A stretch of DNA of 64,000 bases from Chelatococcus caeni. Lineage in GTDB: Bacteria > Pseudomonadota > Alphaproteobacteria > Rhizobiales > Beijerinckiaceae. Below are positions 5,865 through 20,308 of this stretch, piece after piece. The position numbers and the translations under genes were made by a program. The DNA lies in NCBI RefSeq assembly GCF_014196925.1, contig NZ_JACIEN010000006.1, forward strand, positions 124,001-188,000. Direction: 5' to 3'. How positions within the stretch are numbered: the stretch's first letter is position 1; the number at the start of each line of letters is the position of its first letter. The notes under the pieces were generated by a model. That model ran no database searches, had not been told where the DNA came from, and saw only the letters and a list, made by a program, of their open reading frames with translations.

Positions 5865-5997
5865 GCCGTCTCCTGCGGTTCGCGCGACCGGTCACCGGAG
5901 GGCTAGAATGGCCCCCGGCCGGAACGCGCGCCAACAGAACGCGGCATTGAGGCAGCAATGGGCCGAGGCCGCGCCGGCCTTGCCGCGCGGCCGGCTG

Positions 5998-6783
5998 CTA
6001 CTTCGGCGCGAGGCGGATGGCCCCGTCGAGGCGGATGGCCGAGCCGTTGAGCATGTCGTTCTCGATGATGGCGCGCACGAGCGCGGCATATTCCTCCGCC
6101 TTGCCCAGCCGGGACGGGAAGGGCACGCTCGCCTCGAGCGCCGTGCGGTAATCCTCGGGGACGGAAGCGAACATCGGCGTCTCGAACAGCCCGGGCATGA
6201 TCGTCATGACGCGGATGCCGAGCGTCGAAAGGTCGCGCGCCACCGGCAGCGTCATGCCCACCACGCCCGCCTTGGAGGCGGCATAGGCCGCCTGGCCGAT
6301 CTGCCCGTCGGTCGCCGCGACCGAGGCCGTGCAGACGATCACGCCGCGCCCGCCGTCGGGCGTGACGGGCGCGAGGGCCGCCATATCGGCGGCCGCCTTG
6401 GCCGCCACGGTGAACGTGCCGACGAGGTTGATCGCGACGGTGCGGGCGAAGGTCGCGATATCGTGAGCGACGGGCTCGCCGGTGTCGCGCTTCTTCGCCA
6501 CGGTGCGCTTGCCGGGGGCGATGCCGGCGCAGTTGACGACGATCCGCGCCGGCCCGTGGGCGGCTCTGGCCGCCGCGAGCGCGGCATCGACGGAAGCCTC
6601 GTCCGAGACGTCCGTGCGCGCGAAGAGCCCGCCGATATCCTCGGCCACGGCCCGCCCGCGCTCCTCGTTCATGTCGAGGATCGCCACCTTGGCGCCAGCC
6701 GCCGCGAGCATGCGCGCCGTGGCCTCGCCGAGGCCGGAGGCCCCGCCGGTGACGATGGCGGCCATCGATGCGTCGAGCTTCAT
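5998..6783 (-). CDS. SDR-family 3-hydroxyacyl-CoA dehydrogenase-like oxidoreductase
   Basis: This is a short-chain dehydrogenase/reductase of 261 aa. It has the nucleotide-binding TGGASGLGEATARML, an acidic residue after beta-2 (ILDMNEERG) suggesting NAD(H), NCAGIAPGKR, and the catalytic Ser and YAASK in TASVAATDGQIGQAAYAASKAG. The insert KRTVAKKRDTGEPVAHDI and the C-terminal FETPMFASVPEDYR resemble the HSD10 / 2-methyl-3-hydroxybutyryl-CoA dehydrogenase group. A role in branched-chain amino acid or fatty acid oxidation is therefore likely but inferred. The ATG at 6783 has GGGAGGAG seven bases upstream. It stands alone, divergent from the YkvA-like gene. Confidence 0.85.
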   Translation of the reverse strand: MKLDASMAAIVTGGASGLGEATARMLAAAGAKVAILDMNEERGRAVAEDIGGLFARTDVSDEASVDAALAAARAAHGPARIVVNCAGIAPGKRTVAKKRDTGEPVAHDIATFARTVAINLVGTFTVAAKAAADMAALAPVTPDGGRGVIVCTASVAATDGQIGQAAYAASKAGVVGMTLPVARDLSTLGIRVMTIMPGLFETPMFASVPEDYRTALEASVPFPSRLGKAEEYAALVRAIIENDMLNGSAIRLDGAIRLAPK

Positions 6784-7034
6784 GCCTGCTCCTCCCTCGT
6801 GTTCTCTTGCCGGCAAGCTTTGCCGGGATGTGCCAGGGTCCGATGCTCCTTCGGGGTTTAGCGCACCTCGGGCCTGGTGCAAACGCCGTGGGCGGTGCGC
6901 CGGTGCCAATGCCGATGGGACGCCGGTCGCGAAACCTTGTGTGGCCGGCCTTGGCAAACCATCTTCTGGCCTTGGTCTTGCGGCACCAGAGCCGATGGTG
7001 GGCGATGCGCTGTCGCCCGTGAAGGAGACAGGGA

Positions 7035-7406
7035 ATGGACGAGACGATCGCGCGCCCGCTGACGCGCGAGGAGATGCAGGCCATGCGGCGTGCGGTGCGC
7101 GACGAGGAGAGCGTCACGCGCCGCTTCTGGAAGGCGCTGCGCCGTGTCGCCGCGAATACCCCCTTCGCCGAGGACCTCGTCGCCGTCTACTTCTGTGCGA
7201 CCGACCCGGCGACACCGCGCCGCGTCAAGCTCACCTTGCTCGGCGCGCTCGGCTACTTCATCCTGCCGACCGATGCCGTTCCCGATTTCCTGCCGCTCCT
7301 GGGCTTCAGCGACGATATGGCCGTCCTCGCCGCCGCGATCGCCATGGTGGCGGGCGCCATCACCGATGATCACAGGCGCCGCGCGCGGGAAATAATCTCT
7401 CAATAA
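7035..7406 (+). CDS. YkvA family protein (DUF1232)
   Basis: This is a small protein of 123 aa with the DUF1232 signature, here VKLTLLGALGYFILPTDAVP followed by DFLPLLGFSDDMAV. That part probably forms two short membrane-associated helices with a Pro-Asp-rich turn. The rest is polar N-terminal helix and a basic tail. No biochemical function is established for the family. The ATG at 7035 follows GAAGGAGACAGG. No operon partner is apparent. Confidence 0.82.
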   Translation: MDETIARPLTREEMQAMRRAVRDEESVTRRFWKALRRVAANTPFAEDLVAVYFCATDPATPRRVKLTLLGALGYFILPTDAVPDFLPLLGFSDDMAVLAAAIAMVAGAITDDHRRRAREIISQ

Positions 7407-7550
7407 AATTCGATTAACGTTTCGGCTTCATGAACGGCTGCGCACCGGGACCGATGCCTGCCGGCGCGACCATAATTTCGCCCCCTTCCGGACGCCTAGG
7501 AGGCGCCGGGCGGGATGTGTTCCACTCGAACGAGGGAGTGTGACGCTCTG

Positions 7551-8102
7551 ATGATTCGAGGATTCTCGGCGCGGCCCGGCGCGGGCCTTTTCATGATCGG
7601 CGCGGCTGTCGCCGCTGCCCTCGTCGCGAGCCAGCCGGCGGCGGCGCAGGGCGCGGCCGGCGGCCAGGCGACGCTGCTTGCCACCTATGGCGACTGGGGC
7701 GCCTATGCCTCCGGTCAGGGCAACGCGCGCGTGTGCTATGCCATGACCCAGCCCAAGCAGCGCCTGCCGGCCGGCCTCAACCGCGATCCGGCCTATCTCT
7801 TCGTGTCGAAGCGGCCGGCCGAGAACGTGCGCAACGAGGTCAGCTTCGTGATGGGCTTCCCCACGCGCGAGAATGTCGACGCCCGTGCGACGGTGGGCGA
7901 TGCGGCCTTCGCGCTCGTGACGAAGGGTGAGAACGCCTGGGTCAAGGACCCGGCGCAGGAGGGCCAGGTGATCACGTCCCTGCAGCGAGGCGCGAAGCTG
8001 GTCATCAACGTTGAATCGCGCCGCGGCAACAAGCTGACCGATGAATATTCGCTCCAGGGCTTCACCCAGGCGCTGAAGCGGGTGAACGACGAGTGCAAGT
8101 GA
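7551..8102 (+). CDS. Invasion-associated locus B (IalB)-like secreted protein
   Basis: This is an exported protein of 183 aa. The N-terminus has a hydrophobic signal segment (LFMIGAAVAAALVASQPAAAQ). The mature part begins like IalB, with TYGDWGAYASGQGNARVCYAM, contains NEVSFVMGFPTRENVDARAT, and ends with a Cys near the C-terminus (NDECK) that may pair with the Cys at CYAM. IalB was named in Bartonella, but homologues are widespread in Hyphomicrobiales and have no proven general function. The start is the ATG at 7551, with GGGAG 15 bases upstream, a rather long spacing. A hairpin downstream probably ends the transcript. Confidence 0.82.
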   Translation: MIRGFSARPGAGLFMIGAAVAAALVASQPAAAQGAAGGQATLLATYGDWGAYASGQGNARVCYAMTQPKQRLPAGLNRDPAYLFVSKRPAENVRNEVSFVMGFPTRENVDARATVGDAAFALVTKGENAWVKDPAQEGQVITSLQRGAKLVINVESRRGNKLTDEYSLQGFTQALKRVNDECK

Positions 8103-8189
8103 GCGACAAGTGAGCGGCCGCGGCTGACCGGCTGCGATCGATCGTTGCCGGATGCGCGTGGCGCGCCCGGCACGAGGTGACGATGACGG

Positions 8190-8222
8190 CCCCGGCGTGT
8201 TATAGCGCCGGGACTTTCTGTT
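8190..8222 (+). terminator. Probable intrinsic terminator after the ialB-like gene
   Basis: CCCGGCG (8191-8197), an eight-base loop and CGCCGGG (8206-8212) form a GC stem, followed by ACTTTCTGTTTT. It lies between the ialB-like gene and rlmN, 88 bases past the first stop codon. Confidence 0.6.
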
Positions 8223-8235
8223 TTGGACCGGACCC

Positions 8236-9480
8236 ATGCAAGTGCCCTCGCAGGAGGCGGCGCTCCGCGCCCCTTCACAACCGCGCCCCGTGGCGATGCC
8301 CGTCAAGCCCTCGCTCGTGGGCATGACGCGCCAGGAGCTGCGCGACAGCCTCGCCGCGCTCGACATCCCCGAGCGCGAGCTGCGCATGCGCGTCGGCCAG
8401 CTGTGGCACTGGATCTACCTGCGCGGCGCCCGCGACTTCGACGTCATGACGACCATCGGCAAGGGCCTGCGCGCGCGGCTCGCCGACGCCTATACGCTGG
8501 CGCGGCCCGAGGTGGTCACCGAGCAGGTCTCGCGCGACGGCACGCGCAAGTGGCTCATGCGCATGCCCTCGACCGGCCCCTTCGACAAGGGCGCCGAGAT
8601 CGAGTGCGTCTACATTCCCGAGGTCGATCGCGGCACGCTCTGCGTCTCGAGCCAGGTCGGCTGCACGCTCAACTGCTCCTTCTGCCACACCGGCACGCAG
8701 AAGCTCGTCCGCAATCTCACCTCCGCCGAGATCGTCGCCCAGGTGATGGTCGCGCGCGACCGGCTCGGCGACTGGCCGGACGAGAGCCCGCCCGAGGGCG
8801 CCTTCGTGCCGAGCGACGGCGGGCGCTTCGTCACCAACATCGTCCTCATGGGCATGGGCGAGCCGCTCTACAACTTCGACAACGTCAAGGCGGCGATGGA
8901 CGTCGTCTGCGACAACGAGGGCCTCGGCATCGGCCGCCGCCGCATCACGCTGTCGACCTCCGGCGTCGTGCCGATGATCGCCCGCGCCGGCGAGGAGATC
9001 GGCTGCATGCTGGCCATCTCCCTGCACGCCGTGCGCGACGACCTGCGCGACGTGCTGGTGCCGCTCAACAAGAAATATCCCATCGCCGAGCTGCTCGAGG
9101 CCTGCCGCACCTATCCCGGCGTCTCCAACGCCAAGCGCATCACCTTCGAGTATGTGATGCTGAAGGGCGTCAACGACAGCGAGGCGGACGCCCGCGCCCT
9201 CGTGCGCCTGCTCAAGGGCATCCCGGCCAAGATCAACCTCATCCCGTTCAATCCCTGGCCGGGCACCGAATACGAATGCTCGGACTGGGAGACGATCGAG
9301 CGCTTCTCGCAGATCGTGTTCGACGCCGGCTATGCGAGCCCCGTGCGCACGCCGCGCGGCCGCGACATCCTGGCGGCCTGCGGCCAGCTCAAGAGCGAGA
9401 CGGAAAAGCTGAGGGCCCGCGCCCGCATGATGCTCGAATCCGGCATCGGCGCCGAGGGCATGTTCTCCGCCGCCGAATAA
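8236..9480 (+). CDS. rlmN: Dual-specificity 23S rRNA m2A2503 / tRNA m2A37 methyltransferase RlmN
   Basis: This radical-SAM enzyme of 414 aa methylates C2 of A2503 in 23S rRNA and A37 in some tRNAs. It has the N-terminal accessory domain ([23 protein letters not shown]). The radical-SAM cluster motif is [14 protein letters not shown], followed by [15 protein letters not shown] and the C-terminal catalytic Cys region ([10 protein letters not shown]). The mechanism uses a methyl-Cys intermediate with this last Cys. The start is ATG at 8236, about 20 bases past the upstream terminator. The first 28 residues are longer than in E. coli and could be trimmed to a later start. Confidence 0.96.
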
Positions 9481-14033: not shown

Positions 14034-14966
14034 TCATCGCCCCGGAACCCGCCAGCGCCGGTGCATCCACAGCCATTGCTCCGGGTGCTCCCGCACCCAG
14101 CCTTCGACCACTGCCGTCATGGCGGCCATGGCGCCCTCGACGTCGATCTCGCCGTCCGCGTCGCGCGGCAGGTCGATGGGCGGTGTCAGCTCCAGGCGAA
14201 AGCGCAGGCCGGGGAGGCGGATCACCCGCACGCCATGCACCGGACAGTCGAAGCGCCTGGCGAACTTGGCGAGGATCGGGTTGGTCTTGGCCGGGCGGCC
14301 GAAGAAGGGCACCGTGACGCCGCGGGTGAAGTGCTGGTCGATCAGCATGCCGAGATGGCCGCCGCGCTCCAGCACGCTCTGCATGGCGAAGGCTGCGCCC
14401 TGCCGCGCCGCCTCGAGCCCGCCCATGGTGCCGCTGCGCACCTCGTGCACCACGCGGGCGACGGCCGGCGTGTTGGGGGCGCGGAAGACGGCCGTGGCGT
14501 CGAGCCCGTAGCGGGCGGCGCAGATGGCCGGCAGTTCCCAGTTGGCGAGATGGGCGGAGAAGATGATGCCCGGCTTGCCGTCGTCGCGCAGGGCCTCGAA
14601 ATGCTCGATGCCCTTAACCTCCACCCGCGCGTCCGCCTTCGGATTGAAGTGGTCGTAGTCGAAGAGCACGTCGAGATGGGCATATTCGGCGCCGGTGCGG
14701 CCAAGGTTTTCCCACGCGCCGCGCACGATGGCGCGAATCTCGGCCTCGCTCCTGTCCGGAAAGGCCGCGCGCGCATTGGCGAGGCCGACGCGGTGGACAG
14801 GCAGCAGGGGGCCGATGGTGCGGGCGACGGCTCCGCCGAGATTGCTCGCCCGCTCAGGGCCGAGGAGGCGCAGGAAGCCGAAGACGGTCCGCACGAGGCC
14901 GACCATCACGACCTCGGCGACCGCAAGCCCGGCCCGCTCGAGCGCGGAAGCCGGCCTCACGCGCAC
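14034..14966 (-). CDS. lpxXL: Lipid A long-chain acyltransferase (LpxXL-type, LpxL/HtrB family)
   Basis: This inner-membrane acyltransferase of 310 aa is predicted to move the very-long-chain acyl group from AcpXL onto lipid A. It has an N-terminal membrane helix, the catalytic H-x4-E motif in FSAHLANWELPA, and later blocks GHLGMLIDQHFTRGVTVPFFG and EQWLWMHRRWR that are characteristic of LpxL/LpxM. Being last in the acpXL-fabZ-fabF-fabF cluster is the main reason for LpxXL rather than LpxL. The start is a GTG, with AAGGGGCGTG upstream; a second GTG two codons later is possible. It begins 58 bases after the MDR gene. Confidence 0.88.
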   Translation of the reverse strand: MRVRPASALERAGLAVAEVVMVGLVRTVFGFLRLLGPERASNLGGAVARTIGPLLPVHRVGLANARAAFPDRSEAEIRAIVRGAWENLGRTGAEYAHLDVLFDYDHFNPKADARVEVKGIEHFEALRDDGKPGIIFSAHLANWELPAICAARYGLDATAVFRAPNTPAVARVVHEVRSGTMGGLEAARQGAAFAMQSVLERGGHLGMLIDQHFTRGVTVPFFGRPAKTNPILAKFARRFDCPVHGVRVIRLPGLRFRLELTPPIDLPRDADGEIDVEGAMAAMTAVVEGWVREHPEQWLWMHRRWRVPGR

Positions 14967-15024
14967 GCCCCTTCGCGGGCCGGCCGCCGGGTCGATGCCA
15001 TGCGCCGCACCTTCGGCCGCATCG

Positions 15025-16047
15025 TCAGAAGCGCACCAGGATCTTGCCGAAGACCTTGCGGCTCTCGAGCCGCTCCAGCCCTTGCGCGAAATCCTCGAGC
15101 GGGAACACGGTGTCGATCACCGGCGTGAGGCCCGACGCCATCTTGTCGAGCGATTCGCTGATGTTGCGCATCGAGCAGCCGAAGGATCCGAAGATGCGGT
15201 ACTGCTGCTGGAAGAGCTGCATCAGGTTCATGGTCGTCGATACGCCCGAGGTTGAGCCGCAGGTGACGAGCCGGCCGCCGCGCTTGAGGCAGAGCAGCGA
15301 GCCGTTCCACGTGTCGGCGCCCACATGCTCGAAGACGACGTCGACGCCCTTGCGCTTGGTGAGGCGCCTGACCTCGCCCTCGAAACGCTCGTTGCGGTAG
15401 TTGATGACGTAATCGGCGCCGAGCGCCTTCGCCTTCTCGCCCTTCTCGTCGTCGCCGACGGTGGTGTAGACCGTGCAGCCGATGGCCTTCGCCATCTTGA
15501 TGGCGGCGGTGCCGATGCCCGAGCCGCCGGCGTGCACCAGCACGCTCTCGCCCGGCTCCAGCCGCGCATTGTCGAACAGCATGTGCTGCACGGTGCCGAA
15601 GGCGATCGGCGCGCAGGCCGCCTCCTCGAAGGAGACGCCGTCCGGCACCTTCACCACGAGCCGCTGCGGCATGTTGACGAAATCGCAGGCGAAACCGTCG
15701 ATGTGGAAGCCCATGATGCCGCCGACGTTCTCGCACAGGTTGTCGCGGCCCTCGACGCAGGCCCGGCAGGTGCCGCAGGTGCGCGCGCCGTACATGACGA
15801 CCTTGTCGCCGACGTCGACATGCGTCACGTCCTCGCCGATGGCGACGACCGCGCCGGCGGCCTCCGCGCCGACGACGAGCGGCATCTTGCGCTTGGCGAA
15901 GGCCATGCCGCGGAAGCCCCACACGTCGATGTGGTTGAGCCCGACGGCATGGACGCGGATCTGCACCTCGCCGGGGCCGGGATGGGGCGGGTTCTCCACC
16001 TCCTCCAGCCTCAGGTCGCGGTCGCCGTGGAGCCTTAATGCGCGCAT
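15025..16047 (-). CDS. MDR-family zinc-binding reductase of the VLCFA cluster (candidate enoyl reductase)
   Basis: This is a medium-chain dehydrogenase/reductase of 340 aa. The structural zinc lobe is intact, with four Cys in CGTCRACVEGRDNLC. The nucleotide site is VHAGGSGIGTAAIKMAKA. Catalytic zinc ligands appear absent: the usual Cys is Asn in VGLNHIDVW, the usual GHE is GAE, and the third ligand region reads PIAFGTVQHM. That points away from an alcohol dehydrogenase and towards quinone or enoyl reductases. Homologues in this position are annotated as alcohol dehydrogenase in Rhizobium lipid A clusters. Given its neighbours I infer that it reduces the enoyl-ACP intermediate. This is not proven. 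Confidence 0.8.
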   Translation of the reverse strand: MRALRLHGDRDLRLEEVENPPHPGPGEVQIRVHAVGLNHIDVWGFRGMAFAKRKMPLVVGAEAAGAVVAIGEDVTHVDVGDKVVMYGARTCGTCRACVEGRDNLCENVGGIMGFHIDGFACDFVNMPQRLVVKVPDGVSFEEAACAPIAFGTVQHMLFDNARLEPGESVLVHAGGSGIGTAAIKMAKAIGCTVYTTVGDDEKGEKAKALGADYVINYRNERFEGEVRRLTKRKGVDVVFEHVGADTWNGSLLCLKRGGRLVTCGSTSGVSTTMNLMQLFQQQYRIFGSFGCSMRNISESLDKMASGLTPVIDTVFPLEDFAQGLERLESRKVFGKILVRF

Positions 16048-16091
16048 GAGCCTCGCCGTCTCTTCGAAATTCTGGTCTGGGGCGTGCCGCC

Positions 16092-16853
16092 TCAGCGGTG
16101 CACGCCGATCTGTGCGGTGAGCCCGCCGTCGATCGGCAGGACCGTACCCGTGATATAGCCCGCCGGCTCCGAGAAAAGGAAGGCGACGAGGCCGGCGACC
16201 TCTTCCGGCCGGGCGAAGCGGCCGGTCGGGATCTGCTTTTCCATATTGGCGCGATAGGCGGCGTAGGGCGCCATCATATCCGTGTCGATGAAGCCCGGCG
16301 CCACGTAGTTGACGGTGACGCCGCGCTTGGCCGTCTCCACGGCGAGCGTGCGGATGTAGCTGAGGAGCGCACCCTTGGAGGCGGCATAGGCGGCATTGCC
16401 CGGGTTGCCCTGCAGGGCCGCCACGGAGCCGATGACGACGATGCGCCCGGCCCGCGCACGCAGCATGGTGCGCATCAGGCTCTTGGCGATCTGGGTCAGC
16501 GACCAGAAATTGACCTGCATCGCCGCTTCCGCCTTGTCCTGCGCCATCATGGCCGCGAGCGCGTCGTAGGACTGGCCGGCATTGTGAACGAGGCCGAAAT
16601 AAGCCGTCTCCTCGACGGCCGCGCAGAAGGCGTCGAGCGCCGCTCGGTCGGCCAGGTCGAGCGCGAGCGTCCGCACCGAGCGGCCGGGATGGGCCTGTTC
16701 GAGCTCCGCGGCGAGGGCCTCGGCCGCCTCGGCCGAGGCCCGGTAGGTGAAATCGACGTCGAAGCCCTGCGCCACGAGCGCGCGCACGATGGCCCCGCCG
16801 ACGCCCTTGGCGCCGCCGGTGACGAGGACGCGCCTTGCGGTTTCGCCGCTCAT
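16092..16853 (-). CDS. 3-oxoacyl-ACP reductase-like SDR (FabG-type) in the VLCFA cluster
   Basis: This short-chain reductase of 253 aa has VTGGAKGVGGAIVRAL for nucleotide binding, VHNAGQ, and the catalytic Ser and YAASK in GSVAALQGNPGNAAYAASKG. The FabG-like C-terminus reads GFIDTDMMAPY and ITGTVLPIDGGL. Its start overlaps the stop of the upstream ketosynthase (ATGA), so it is made with that enzyme. In this setting it most likely reduces the 3-oxoacyl-AcpXL intermediate, the step between condensation and FabZ dehydration. It is a dedicated copy, not the housekeeping fabG, which normally sits with fabD and acpP. Confidence 0.86.
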   Translation of the reverse strand: MSGETARRVLVTGGAKGVGGAIVRALVAQGFDVDFTYRASAEAAEALAAELEQAHPGRSVRTLALDLADRAALDAFCAAVEETAYFGLVHNAGQSYDALAAMMAQDKAEAAMQVNFWSLTQIAKSLMRTMLRARAGRIVVIGSVAALQGNPGNAAYAASKGALLSYIRTLAVETAKRGVTVNYVAPGFIDTDMMAPYAAYRANMEKQIPTGRFARPEEVAGLVAFLFSEPAGYITGTVLPIDGGLTAQIGVHR

Positions 16854-18133
16854 GCCGGTTCCGCCGCGAAGACGAGGCAGGTGTTCTGCCCGCCGAAGCC
16901 GAAGGAGTTGGAGAGCACGCGGCCGACCCTTGCGTCCCGCGCCACGTTCGGCACCACGTCGAGCGGGATCGTCGGGTCGGGCACCTTGTAGTTGATGGTG
17001 GGCGGAATGCGCCCCTCGCCGATGGTCAGGAGCGAGAACACCGCCTCGATGGCGCCGGCCGCCGTCAGCGTGTGGCCGATCATCGACTTGTTGGAGGAGA
17101 TCGGCACCTCGCGCATGCGCTCGCCCATGACGGCGAGGCAGCCCGCGGACTCCATCTTGTCGTTCTCCGGCGTCGAGGTGCCGTGCGCGTTGATGTAGTC
17201 GATGTCGTCGGGCGTCAGCCCCGCATCCGCGATGGCCTCGCGCATGGCGGCGATGGCGGGCGCCCCGTCCGGGCTCGAGCGCGTGCGGTGGAAGCCGTCG
17301 CCCTTCTCGCCGCAGCCGAGGACGAAGCCGAGGATCTTCGCCCCGCGCGCGAGCGCGTGGTCATAGTCCTCCAGCACCAGCGCCGCCGCGCCTTCGCCCA
17401 TGACGAAGCCGTCGCGGTTCTTGGAGAAGGGCTTGGCCGCCTCCTCCGGCGGGTCGTTCTGGGTCGACAGTGCCGAGAGCAGCGAGAAGCGGATGAGCGA
17501 TTCCGGGTTCACCGAGCCGTCGGTGCCGATGGCGAGCGCCGCCGAGACCTCGCCGCGGCGGATCGCCTCGACGCCGAGCTGGATGGCGGTGGCGCCCGAC
17601 GAGCAGGCGGTCGACAGCGAGACGGGCGAGCCCTTGGTGCCGAAGCGGTCCTGGATGCGGGCCGCCACCGTGCCGAAGAGGAACAGCTCGTGCCAGGCCT
17701 TGAAGCGGCCGGTCTGGGCGCCGGCGAGCAGCGTGCCGTAGTCGGCCTCGCCGTTGCGCCTGCCGGCTTCGGCGAGTGCCTCGCGCTGCGGCCATTCCAT
17801 CTCGACCGGCGGCACGGCCATGAACAGCGCCCCCGGAAAGTCGCCCGGGTGGCCGATGCCGGCCTGGCCCACGGCCTCGCTCGCCGCGCGCAGGGCGAAC
17901 TGCTCCGAAAGGGCAGGGGCGCAGAACGGCTCGGCGGCGACGAAATCGACCGTGCCGGCGATGGTCGTGCGCAGGTTGTCGGTGGCGAAGCGGCTGATGC
18001 GGTGGATGCCGGACCGCCCGGCCGTCAGCGCCGCCCAGTTGTCGGCCTTGCCCTCGCCGAGCGAGGTGACGACGCCCATGCCCGTCACGACGACGAGGGG
18101 GCGCCCATGCTTGTCCCTGTGTGGCGTGGCCAT
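16850..18133 (-). CDS. Beta-ketoacyl-ACP synthase, catalytically complete (FabF1XL-type)
   Basis: This is a condensing enzyme of 427 aa that would extend acyl chains with malonyl-ACP. The active-site triad is intact: Cys177 in VSLSTACSSGATAIQ, His317 in NAHGTSTPENDKME and His354 in KSMIGHTLTAAGAIE. The C-terminus shows NSFGFGGQNTCLVF. Twelve bases separate it from the upstream ketosynthase-like gene, with GGAGG before its ATG. The pairing with a sequence-degenerate homologue suggests a heterodimer. Product length is inferred from the cluster, since the C28 hydroxy acyl group of rhizobial lipid A depends on equivalent genes. Confidence 0.92.
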   Translation of the reverse strand: MATPHRDKHGRPLVVVTGMGVVTSLGEGKADNWAALTAGRSGIHRISRFATDNLRTTIAGTVDFVAAEPFCAPALSEQFALRAASEAVGQAGIGHPGDFPGALFMAVPPVEMEWPQREALAEAGRRNGEADYGTLLAGAQTGRFKAWHELFLFGTVAARIQDRFGTKGSPVSLSTACSSGATAIQLGVEAIRRGEVSAALAIGTDGSVNPESLIRFSLLSALSTQNDPPEEAAKPFSKNRDGFVMGEGAAALVLEDYDHALARGAKILGFVLGCGEKGDGFHRTRSSPDGAPAIAAMREAIADAGLTPDDIDYINAHGTSTPENDKMESAGCLAVMGERMREVPISSNKSMIGHTLTAAGAIEAVFSLLTIGEGRIPPTINYKVPDPTIPLDVVPNVARDARVGRVLSNSFGFGGQNTCLVFAAEPA

Positions 18134-18145
18134 TCCTGCCTCCGC

Positions 18146-19282
18146 TCAGATGCGCTCGACGAGGGCGAGGCCCTCGCCGCGGGCATGTCCGATGCTGGTC
18201 ACCGCCGCCTGCCGCGCGTCGCCGCGCTTGACGAGGGCCGCTGCCAGCGCCACGCCGGCGGGGAACTGCGGCTCCAGCATGTTGCCGAAGAGATCGCCGG
18301 TGGCGATGCGCCGCGCGCCGTCGGTGCGCCGGTCGAGCACCGCCTTCTCTTCCGCCGTGATGCCGGCGACGCCGGTGGCGCCCGAGACGACGAGGCCGCT
18401 CGCAGCATCGAAGCCGCCGGCCTTTTCGAACAGGCCGTCGAGCGCCTCGCCCGCCGCGCCGGGTGCACGGCGCACCTGGTCGGCGCCGACATGCGCCAGC
18501 CGGGCGATCGGCGTCGCGCCGCGCGCCTCGGCATGGTCGCGCGCCTCGAGCACGAGGAAGGCGGCGCCGCTGCCGGGAATGAAGCCGCCACCCTTCGCCT
18601 CGCGCTCCCACACGCCGGCGAAGCTGTCCTTCCACAGGAGGCCGGCCATCTCGTAGACGAGCAGCACGTCCGGCCGCTCGGCATTGTAGGAGCCGCCGAC
18701 GAGGAAGATGTCGCCCTGGTCCGCGGCGATGCGCGCCTGGGCGATGCGTAGCGCGTCGACGCCGGCCTGCTCCTCGCCCATGAAGGTGCGCGTCGCGCCG
18801 GTCACCCCGTGCACGATGGAGATGTTGCCGGCGAGCAGGTTCGACAGCTGGGCGAGAAAGAGCGTCGGCCTCAGGTCGCCCATCAGCCGCTCGTTGAGGA
18901 AGGCGCCGGGGTCGGCCGCCTGCGGCAGGCCGGTGAGCACCTGGCTGTCCACCTGATAGTCGCGCTCGCCGCCGCCGGCTGCGCAGATGAGGTGGAGATG
19001 GCCGAGGAGCGCCTTGTCCTCCTTGATGCCGGCGTCGTCGAGGGCGAGCCCCGCCGCATAGACGCCGAGCTTCTGCCAGGCCTCCATCTGCCGCTGGTCG
19101 GACTTCTTCGGAATCTGCCGCTCCCATTCGAGCGGCACGACCGGATGCACCAGATGCGGCTTGAAGCGCTCGGCCTCGACGGTCCCCGGGCGGCCGGCAT
19201 CGACGGCGGCGAGATGCGCCTCGATGCCTTCGCCGAGATTGGAGACGATGCCGATGCCGGTGATGAAGACCTCGCGCGTCAT
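18146..19282 (-). CDS. Ketosynthase-like protein lacking the catalytic triad (FabF2XL-type, chain-length-factor-like)
   Basis: This protein of 378 aa has the thiolase-fold start of a ketosynthase (REVFITGIGIVSNLGEGIEA). None of the three catalytic motifs survive. The nucleophile region reads IVHGVTGATRTFMGEEQAG with no Cys (the only Cys in the protein is near residue 100). The HGT motif is replaced by VVSGATGVAGITAEE and the KSxxGH motif by GDLFGNMLEPQFPAG. Such loss is typical of the chain-length factor (KS-beta) of type II polyketide synthases, so a non-catalytic partner of the next gene is likely. The ATG at 19282 has GGAGG six bases upstream, just after the fabZ stop. Confidence 0.86.
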   Translation of the reverse strand: MTREVFITGIGIVSNLGEGIEAHLAAVDAGRPGTVEAERFKPHLVHPVVPLEWERQIPKKSDQRQMEAWQKLGVYAAGLALDDAGIKEDKALLGHLHLICAAGGGERDYQVDSQVLTGLPQAADPGAFLNERLMGDLRPTLFLAQLSNLLAGNISIVHGVTGATRTFMGEEQAGVDALRIAQARIAADQGDIFLVGGSYNAERPDVLLVYEMAGLLWKDSFAGVWEREAKGGGFIPGSGAAFLVLEARDHAEARGATPIARLAHVGADQVRRAPGAAGEALDGLFEKAGGFDAASGLVVSGATGVAGITAEEKAVLDRRTDGARRIATGDLFGNMLEPQFPAGVALAAALVKRGDARQAAVTSIGHARGEGLALVERI

Positions 19283-19283
19283 G

Positions 19284-19757
19284 TCATGCCTCCGGGGCGG
19301 GCGCGTCGAGCGCAAGGCCGAGCCCAAGGGCCTGCTCGCGCATGCGGCCCGACAGCCCCTCGGGGAAGGGCAGCATGCGGAACATGAGCTCGGCGTCGCA
19401 GATGTCCTTGCCGGCGCTCGAAATCTTCGCCTTGGTCACGGCGTAGCCGGAACCCTGGTGGATGCGCCTGGCCTCGATGACGAGCGACGCGCCCGGCCCG
19501 ACGAAGGAGCGGAACTTCGCCTTTTCGACGCCGGCGAGGAAGGGCATGTGCGTGAAGCGCGTCAGCGCCAGGATGAGATAGCCCGAGGCCTGCGCCATGG
19601 TCTCGGTGAGGAGCACGCCCGGCATCAGCGGGTGGTCGGGAAAATGCCCCTCGAAGACGGGGCTTTCCATGGGCACCGTCGAATGGGCTTCGAGCCGCTC
19701 GCCCGCCTCGTCGAAGAGGGCGACACGGTCGATCATCTGGAAATATTCGAGGCGCAT
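19284..19757 (-). CDS. 3-hydroxyacyl-ACP dehydratase (FabZXL-type)
   Basis: This hot-dog-fold dehydratase of 157 aa has the FabZ active site FEGHFPDHPLMPGVLLTETMAQASG, here read in parts: FEGHFPDHPLMPGV carries the catalytic His and LLTETMAQ the Glu. The substrate-tunnel region FLAGVEKAKFRSFVGPGASL is also family-like. It probably dehydrates 3-hydroxyacyl-AcpXL during elongation. It lies between acpXL and the ketosynthase pair, its stop codon one base from the next start. Confidence 0.9.
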   Translation of the reverse strand: MRLEYFQMIDRVALFDEAGERLEAHSTVPMESPVFEGHFPDHPLMPGVLLTETMAQASGYLILALTRFTHMPFLAGVEKAKFRSFVGPGASLVIEARRIHQGSGYAVTKAKISSAGKDICDAELMFRMLPFPEGLSGRMREQALGLGLALDAPAPEA

Positions 19758-19835
19758 GGGCTCTTCGGGATCTGCCGGCCCCGGCGCCGCGGTGAAAGGC
19801 CGCGCCGCCGGTGGAAAGACGTGTTCAGGCGTGCA

Positions 19836-20114
19836 TCAGGCCTTGGCGGCGACGAGCTCGTCGATGCGCGCGCACAGGTTCTTCAGCACGAAATATTCCT
19901 CGGCGGGCACCTTGCCTTCGTTGACTTCCTGCGTCCACGTCTCGAGCGGCAGCTTGATGCCGAAGGCCTTGTCGATGGCGAAGGCGATGTCGAGAAAGGC
20001 GAGCGAGTCGACACCGAGATCGTCGATCGCGTGGCTCTCGGGCGTGATCTGCTCACGGGGGATGTCGCACGTCTCCGAGATGATGCCGGCGACGGTCTCG
20101 AAAGTGGAAGCCAT
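19836..20114 (-). CDS. acpXL: Acyl carrier protein AcpXL
   Basis: This is a dedicated acyl carrier protein of 92 aa for very-long-chain acyl groups of lipid A. The phosphopantetheine Ser lies in [20 protein letters not shown], close to the AcpXL form and different from the housekeeping DSLDTVEL. The downstream helix [20 protein letters not shown] and the longer C-terminus also fit AcpXL. It is first in the operon and has a predicted promoter 90 bases upstream. GGAGAGAG lies before the ATG. Confidence 0.93.
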
Positions 20115-20210: not shown

Positions 20211-20239
20211 CCTATACATGAGCGCCGGCGGTTGTCCAA
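20211..20239 (-). promoter_or_regulatory. Predicted sigma-70 promoter for the acpXL operon
   Basis: On the minus strand TTGGAC (20239-20234) and TATAGG (20216-20211) are separated by 17 bases. They lie about 95 bases before the acpXL ATG. The -35 box falls inside the hairpin at 20223-20248. Confidence 0.45.
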
Positions 20240-20248
20240 CCGCCGGCG
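20223..20248. repeat. 11-bp stem palindrome between acnA and acpXL
   Basis: CGCCGGCGGTT (20223-20233), loop GTCC and AACCGCCGGCG (20238-20248) form a perfect stem. It lies 60 bases beyond the acnA stop. In the acnA direction no T-tract follows, so termination would need help. It overlaps the predicted acpXL -35 box. Confidence 0.55.
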
Positions 20249-20308
20249 TCGTTGTTCTCCATAAACCCGCTGCCGGTGCCTGCGCAAGCGCCGGCCTGCC
20301 GGCCCGGA

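Follow-up and report, generated by a model that had tools for sequence, protein, structure and literature searches.

What allows a fatty acid synthase to build chains reaching C26-C30, a length that two ordinary FabF enzymes do not explain? The question is raised by an operon of Chelatococcus caeni located at 14034-20114 of the window, the whole 64,000-nucleotide stretch analysed here (contig NZ_JACIEN010000006.1, positions 124,001 to 188,000). Judging from its genes, this operon is the seven-gene form of the known acpXL-lpxXL lipid A cluster, which in rhizobia has been associated with symbiosis and with tolerance to stress. An earlier, sequence-only reading of this DNA had described two of its products as a ketosynthase (KS) pair. 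Both are indeed KS-fold proteins and the active site of KS-alpha is intact, but KS-beta is devoid of the catalytic Cys in all 144 sequences aligned. What is new here is that, as far as the residues tell, the pair is not two enzymes, since KS-beta has lost its active-site Cys.

KS-alpha ('fabF1XL', 16850..18133) is the predicted condensing enzyme, with its Cys, the His of HGT, a Lys and the His of GHT, and KS-beta ('fabF2XL', 18146..19282) is encoded just before it on the same minus strand. The KS-beta start was placed at the ATG at 19282; the list of open reading frames (ORFs) has a TTG at 19327. Both proteins pass the NCBIfam cut-offs of their own families, KS-alpha with 748.2 bits against NF005076 (cut-off 629) and KS-beta with 523.8 bits against NF005084 (cut-off 320). 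The catalytic roles of the Cys, His and Lys residues of ketosynthases are textbook knowledge. In an alignment of 143 KS-alpha and 144 KS-beta sequences, the Cys of KS-alpha is present in 141 of 143 rows, the remaining two being one gap and one X, and the HGT His, the Lys and the GHT His are each kept in 142, with one gap. The trait of a ketosynthase/chain length factor pair, a KS-adjacent partner in which the catalytic Cys is replaced, is found in KS-beta: Glu occupies the Cys column in 143 of the 144 sequences and Asp in the other one. No KS-beta has His at the HGT column (G in 115, A in 24, S in 1, gap in 4) or Lys at the Lys column (gap in 4). The RTFMGEE motif around the lost Cys is nearly invariant, and the named S. 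meliloti KS-beta likewise lacks this Cys.

The structure model of KS-beta is good (pLDDT 87.9, pTM 0.90) and Foldseek assigns it the KS fold, its best matches including FabF structures and the ishigamide ketosynthase. Of 200 genomes sampled across the phylum, 20 have a member of the family, and 19 of these 20 belong to the order. The need for this protein comes from rhizobia. For instance, an A. fabrum fabF2XL insertion mutant has no very-long-chain fatty acid (VLCFA) in its lipid A, and a plasmid carrying the single gene restored part of it (PMC11901934); by position and length, fabF2XL is the KS-beta gene. Attempts to obtain mutants of acpXL, of fabZ and of both KS genes were unsuccessful in Bradyrhizobium ORS278 (PMC5613085). 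A needed protein without the condensing Cys is most readily understood as a partner subunit. KS-beta is thus probably a non-catalytic, chain-length-factor-like partner of KS-alpha, with which it would form a heterodimer, and by analogy with polyketide chain length factors it probably sets the length of the chain.

Several observations weigh against this interpretation. The second His column of KS-beta still holds His in 123 of 144 sequences (Asn in the window protein), and within the window KS-alpha and KS-beta share 19% identity across 360 columns, which makes the columns distant from the Cys motif less certain. In both sequence-profile and Foldseek searches KS-beta is no nearer to chain length factors than to ordinary FabF, which ranks above or level with them. 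A single-chain read-through model of the pair is too poor to interpret (pLDDT 62.5, pTM 0.48). Finally, the A. fabrum mutants are insertions within an operon, whose polar effects are only partly ruled out. Even so, it is highly improbable that both KS genes encode ordinary condensing enzymes acting separately, e.g., in early and late elongation, as the KS fold and family matches of both proteins and their annotation as beta-ketoacyl-ACP synthases (two FabF) would allow, because Glu or Asp replaces Cys in all 144 KS-beta sequences, the HGT His and the Lys are gone, and RTFMGEE is nearly invariant. No paper on a chain length factor in the acpXL cluster was found among open-licence PMC papers, which is a weak sign of novelty.

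A KS-beta/KS-alpha pair also occurs on a conjugative Bradyrhizobium plasmid (NZ_CP100605.1, 360629-373786, at 5974-8495 of that stretch), after a gene for a SAM-dependent methyltransferase. The 13 kb read there contain no match to acpXL, fabZ, fabG, MDR or lpxXL. A search of plasmid records gave 7 matches, three of which were examined. A pair standing alone fits a two-protein unit and represents a possible second use of KS-beta/KS-alpha.

The seven genes lie head to tail in the order acpXL, fabZ, KS-beta, KS-alpha, fabG-like, MDR and lpxXL, all on the minus strand, with spacings of 78, 1, 12, -4, 44 and 58 bases, the KS-alpha and fabG-like genes overlapping by 4 bases. The combination of AcpXL, paired KS genes and LpxXL in a single orientation, by which the acpXL-lpxXL cluster is recognised, is present. 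AcpXL (19836..20114, 92 aa) is a specialised acyl carrier protein (ACP) with a DSL phosphopantetheine site, whose Ser is kept in 143 of 143 sequences (here and below, the window protein and its relatives); it scores 176.6 bits against NF005079 (cut-off 83), and its closest solved structure is 2kw2, 'Specialized acyl carrier protein' (E 2.6e-46). The FabZ-type 3-hydroxyacyl-ACP dehydratase (19284..19757, 157 aa) keeps its catalytic His and Glu in 134 of 134 sequences; it is below the cut-off of NF000582 (95.4 bits, cut-off 113) but scores 78.1 bits against PF07977, above the Pfam gathering score. LpxXL (14034..14966), from the family of acyltransferases by which the very long chain is transferred onto lipid A, scores 453.6 bits against NF005120 (cut-off 273) and keeps the His and Glu of its HX4E motif in 117 of 117 sequences. 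The family matches, the spacing and the catalytic residues bear out the seven genes and positions given by the sequence-only reading. Its proposal of a full elongation set plus delivery also stands, since the beta-processing genes are complete and are accompanied by the acyltransferase in a cluster of the acpXL type.

Upstream of the operon is an aconitase gene of the same orientation, and downstream of it a DUF1223 gene. A scan located a G+C-rich 12-pair hairpin at 20222-20249, between the aconitase gene and acpXL, that is terminator-like on the plus strand only; the promoter scan returned no candidate. The closest named relative is Chelatococcus sambhunathii, whose FabG-like protein is 98% identical.

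The fabG-like gene (16092..16853) is the one by which this operon differs from the Rhizobiaceae cluster, and its distribution was studied in two samples. The first, for which the FabG-like protein served as query, consists of the best 80 of 117 relatives, all of them named loci, and is informative for gene order, not for the presence of fabG. With the genes abbreviated as A (acpXL), Z (fabZ), 2 (KS-beta), 1 (KS-alpha), G (fabG-like), M (MDR) and X (lpxXL), all seven appear in the order A-Z-2-1-G-M-X in 66 of the 80 loci. Among the other 14, four are cut by contig ends (L059, L080, L088, L093), and nine have the first five genes, but the available downstream sequence shows no MDR, no lpxXL or neither (L099 has its MDR upstream). 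In the remaining one, Microvirga terricola (L049), fabG, MDR and lpxXL are present, and acpXL, fabZ and both KS genes had no match in the 9 kb upstream. The FabG match begins at most 30 bases from the end of KS-alpha in 61 of 79 named loci.

The second sample comprises 249 genomes of the order, including that of the window, searched for AcpXL. The cut-off was passed in 66, and the 65 clusters other than that of the window were fetched and scored with the profiles of the first sample, which very diverged genes could escape; a second AcpXL contig of one genome (G242) was left out. The two samples seem to overlap, L127 and L111 being probably the same genome. The patterns found were AZ21GMX (17), AZ21MX (15), AZ21G (13), AZ21X (8), A21MX (8), AZ21GM (2), A21GM (1) and AZ21 (1, L178); the last is truncated by a contig end and is not counted among the 64 informative clusters. 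The fabG-like gene is present in 33 of these 64, in 12 of 15 family codes, and is absent from all sampled clusters of f22 (10), f15 (7), f48 (1) and f33/g38 (8). Of these codes, f22 appears to resemble Rhizobiaceae and f33/g38 Bradyrhizobium. S. meliloti Ak57 (CP090106.1) has a six-gene cluster without fabG.

These figures come from the gene-content comparison across the order that the sequence-only reading had proposed, and they divide its view of this gene. Its tentative statement that rhizobial clusters have no FabG-like gene agrees with S. meliloti and with the 10 of 10 f22 and 8 of 8 f33/g38 clusters. A fabG-bearing cluster is nevertheless not exceptional, given its frequency among the informative clusters and the up to seven ORFs described in the Azorhizobium cluster (PMC11901934). 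For the same frequency and spread over family codes, the idea of a Chelatococcus oddity was rejected.

With regard to descent, a quick tree of 86 rows was built with paralogues from the window genome and matches from genomes without a cluster FabG. The 40 cluster FabGs form one clade (SH-aLRT 99) against 46 paralogues, including the housekeeping FabG adjoining fabD. A long-branch warning concerns, among others, the paralogues L191 and L192, which adjoin the cluster clade, so that the neighbour of this clade is unsure. A recent copy of the housekeeping FabG was rejected as the origin, on account of this separate clade. No orthologue was found elsewhere in the seven genomes without a cluster FabG that were searched, the best matches (36-40% identity) being at the level of the housekeeping protein. 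On a tree of AcpXL and both KS proteins (74 rows), the fabG label needs 7 changes, at least 6 by the starred branches. That the FabGs form one clade and keep one place in the cluster, yet are distributed in a scattered way, fits an ancient gene lost repeatedly, a history that quick trees, long-branch warnings and unrooted counts cannot prove.

The FabG-like protein belongs to the SDR family and keeps Ser, Tyr and Lys with the YxxxK spacing in 114 of 114 sequences. Ser-Tyr-Lys with YxxxK is the ketoreductase pattern. It is called FabG-like here because it scores 211.2 bits against the FabG equivalog NF004200, under the cut-off of 273, being above the Pfam gathering score; at E 1e-45 its solved matches are only two ordinary FabG-type entries. 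From its context, this protein of a cluster-specific clade is probably a 3-ketoacyl-AcpXL reductase.

The MDR protein (15025..16047; rhizobial 'adhA2XL') is probably the enoyl reductase. Its four structural-zinc Cys are kept in 116 of 116 sequences (those scoring below 450 being excluded), and at the catalytic-zinc positions, which we take to correspond to Cys46 and His67, all 116 have Asn at the former and Ala or Val at the latter. The ligands that define a zinc alcohol dehydrogenase are thus missing, and the protein resembles double-bond reductases more than such dehydrogenases, as the sequence-only reading had supposed in calling it a probable enoyl reductase. All of its best family matches are below cut-off: to a quinone oxidoreductase subfamily, to a subfamily named 'putative alcohol dehydrogenase' (NF010344, second) and to acryloyl-CoA reductase. 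It scores 220.7 bits against TIGR02824 (cut-off 296.8), above the Pfam gathering score. Three points speak against this assignment or that of the FabG-like protein: both proteins are below curated cut-offs, the substrates of both rest on context, and the second-best family and the best solved relative of MDR (2eih) are both named alcohol dehydrogenase. With the rhizobial name and the annotation 'zinc-binding dehydrogenase', the last point could indicate an alcohol dehydrogenase acting on the (omega-1)-hydroxyl. We consider this very doubtful, since the catalytic-zinc ligands are absent from all 116 sequences, 2eih itself has none in the alignment, and an A. fabrum adhA2XL insertion mutant lost the whole VLCFA of its lipid A instead of showing an altered oxidation state, part being restored by a plasmid with the single gene (PMC11901934).

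Both reductases might also be bystanders that serve another purpose, the VLCFA being reduced by the housekeeping FabG and FabI. Both are absent from the cluster in 8 of 8 Bradyrhizobium-like f33/g38 loci; a search at E 1e-45 gave no MDR in seven of these genomes and a 36% paralogue in the other. Bradyrhizobium ORS278, which has no adhA2XL, produces both C26 and C30 chains (PMC5613085). In some Microvirga, moreover, extra ORFs separate fabG from MDR. Yet the A. fabrum MDR mutant, whose lipid A had no VLCFA until that gene alone restored part of it (PMC11901934), argues for a dedicated enoyl reductase, and the FabG clade keeps its position close behind KS-alpha; we therefore regard bystanders as unlikely and retain dedicated reductases. 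The Microvirga loci in question are L043, L044, L049, L051, L055 and L068, with gaps of 1.0-1.7 kb between fabG and MDR.

The sequence-only reading had called this operon self-contained, which is too strong. A self-contained type II fatty acid synthase (FAS) would have its own malonyl-ACP loading and initiation, and neither was found in the cluster: the malonyl transferase FabD is a single-copy gene at G000:C1:677689, beside FabG and FabF and outside the cluster, and no FabH-type gene matched within the cluster, such matches occurring elsewhere in the genome. Other bacteria, in addition, have the core with no FabG, with no MDR or with no FabZ. AcpXL, KS-beta and KS-alpha are present in all 65 sampled clusters (KS-alpha of L178 only as a contig-end fragment), and fabZ, fabG and MDR vary. 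Mesorhizobium loti reportedly relies on its housekeeping FabZ, a fabZXL being absent (PMC7663294), in agreement with the A21MX pattern. An AcpXL/KS-beta/KS-alpha core thus appears to be fixed in the sampled clusters, and the ketoreductase (KR), dehydratase (DH) and enoyl reductase (ER) genes would be dedicated but replaceable.

A particular arrangement is seen in the f18/g23 clusters, all ten of which (L154, L155, L157, L159-L161, L163, L164, L166, L167) have the order acpXL-fabZ-KS-beta-KS-alpha-fabG. Their MDR lies just upstream in the opposite direction; it is partly seen in eight loci, and is whole and 68-69% identical in three genomes searched, including those of the other two loci.

The proposed pathway would run as follows. 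AcpXL would carry the very long chain during its synthesis, KS-alpha would condense malonyl-AcpXL onto the growing acyl chain, and KS-beta, paired with KS-alpha, would probably shape the acyl tunnel and hence the length. The cluster FabG would reduce the 3-keto group, FabZ would dehydrate, MDR, having no catalytic-zinc ligands, would reduce the enoyl group, and LpxXL would deliver the completed chain to lipid A. The operon has no gene for malonyl loading (FabD), none for phosphopantetheinylation or for any (omega-1)-hydroxylation, and none for the primer. A literature search on where the (omega-1)-hydroxyl comes from listed no useful paper. Gene content, residues and distribution are read from the sequences, whereas the need of lipid A VLCFA synthesis for AcpXL, KS-beta, MDR and LpxXL rests on rhizobial studies; the heterodimer, its role in chain length, the substrates of FabG and MDR and the Chelatococcus product are predicted. 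S. meliloti mutants in cluster genes other than acpXL grew at a disadvantage in one medium (PMC5539429).

The genes present do not prove what is made: free-living Azorhizobium, with up to seven ORFs in its cluster, reportedly has no VLCFA in its lipid A (PMC11901934, PMC5644692), which also counts against our reading. The operon could therefore make a (very) long acyl group other than the rhizobial 27-hydroxy-C28, or its product could go elsewhere than to the usual lipid A site. The operon has no hydroxylase gene, and lpxXL was not found within the ~13-15 kb fetched downstream of acpXL in the ten f18 clusters. The LpxXL of the window, in contrast, is well above its family cut-off and is encoded within the operon, and this alternative, the best placed of those considered, is still rather unlikely. 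A seven-gene acpXL-lpxXL cluster with elongation by KS-alpha/KS-beta, dedicated reductases and delivery by LpxXL is, as a whole, a fairly likely reading.

A broader proposal has about an even chance of being right: the Hyphomicrobiales synthase would be a KS-alpha/KS-beta machine resembling a highly reducing type II polyketide synthase (PKS), in which a dead KS marked by RTFMGEE sets the C26-C30 length and KR, DH and ER genes are gained or lost around the AcpXL/KS core, the seven-gene form being near-ancestral and the rhizobial forms reduced. A dead KS partner would offer a direct, testable answer on chain length and would alter the interpretation of the published fabF2XL mutants. Reconstitution of the pathway in vitro could well start from the seven-gene form, in which a separate gene is available for every reducing step.

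Among known systems, the housekeeping type II FAS of the same genome (FabD, FabG and FabF, G000:C1:677689-680712) performs the same types of reaction as the operon, but the cluster has a FabG of a separate clade, an ACP of a separate family and no FabD. The Rhizobiaceae acpXL-lpxXL cluster (S. meliloti, A. fabrum) contains acpXL, fabZ, KS-beta, KS-alpha, MDR and lpxXL in the order of the window (S. meliloti Ak57, CP090106.1), to which the window adds the FabG-like gene between KS-alpha and MDR. The cluster of Azorhizobium caulinodans, with its up to seven ORFs, matches the window in gene number, its lipid A being the one reported without VLCFA (PMC11901934, PMC5644692). The last comparison is with the KS/chain length factor pairs of type II PKS, including that of ishigamide (6kxd). 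The 6kxd ketosynthase (profile and Foldseek searches) and actinorhodin 1tqy_B (profile search) are among the matches of KS-beta. Gln replaces Cys in many chain length factors, whereas KS-beta of the window has Glu, its predicted product is a fatty acid and its heterodimer with KS-alpha is a putative one. Both systems have in common an active KS adjacent to a Cys-less partner, accompanied by an ACP and reducing enzymes.

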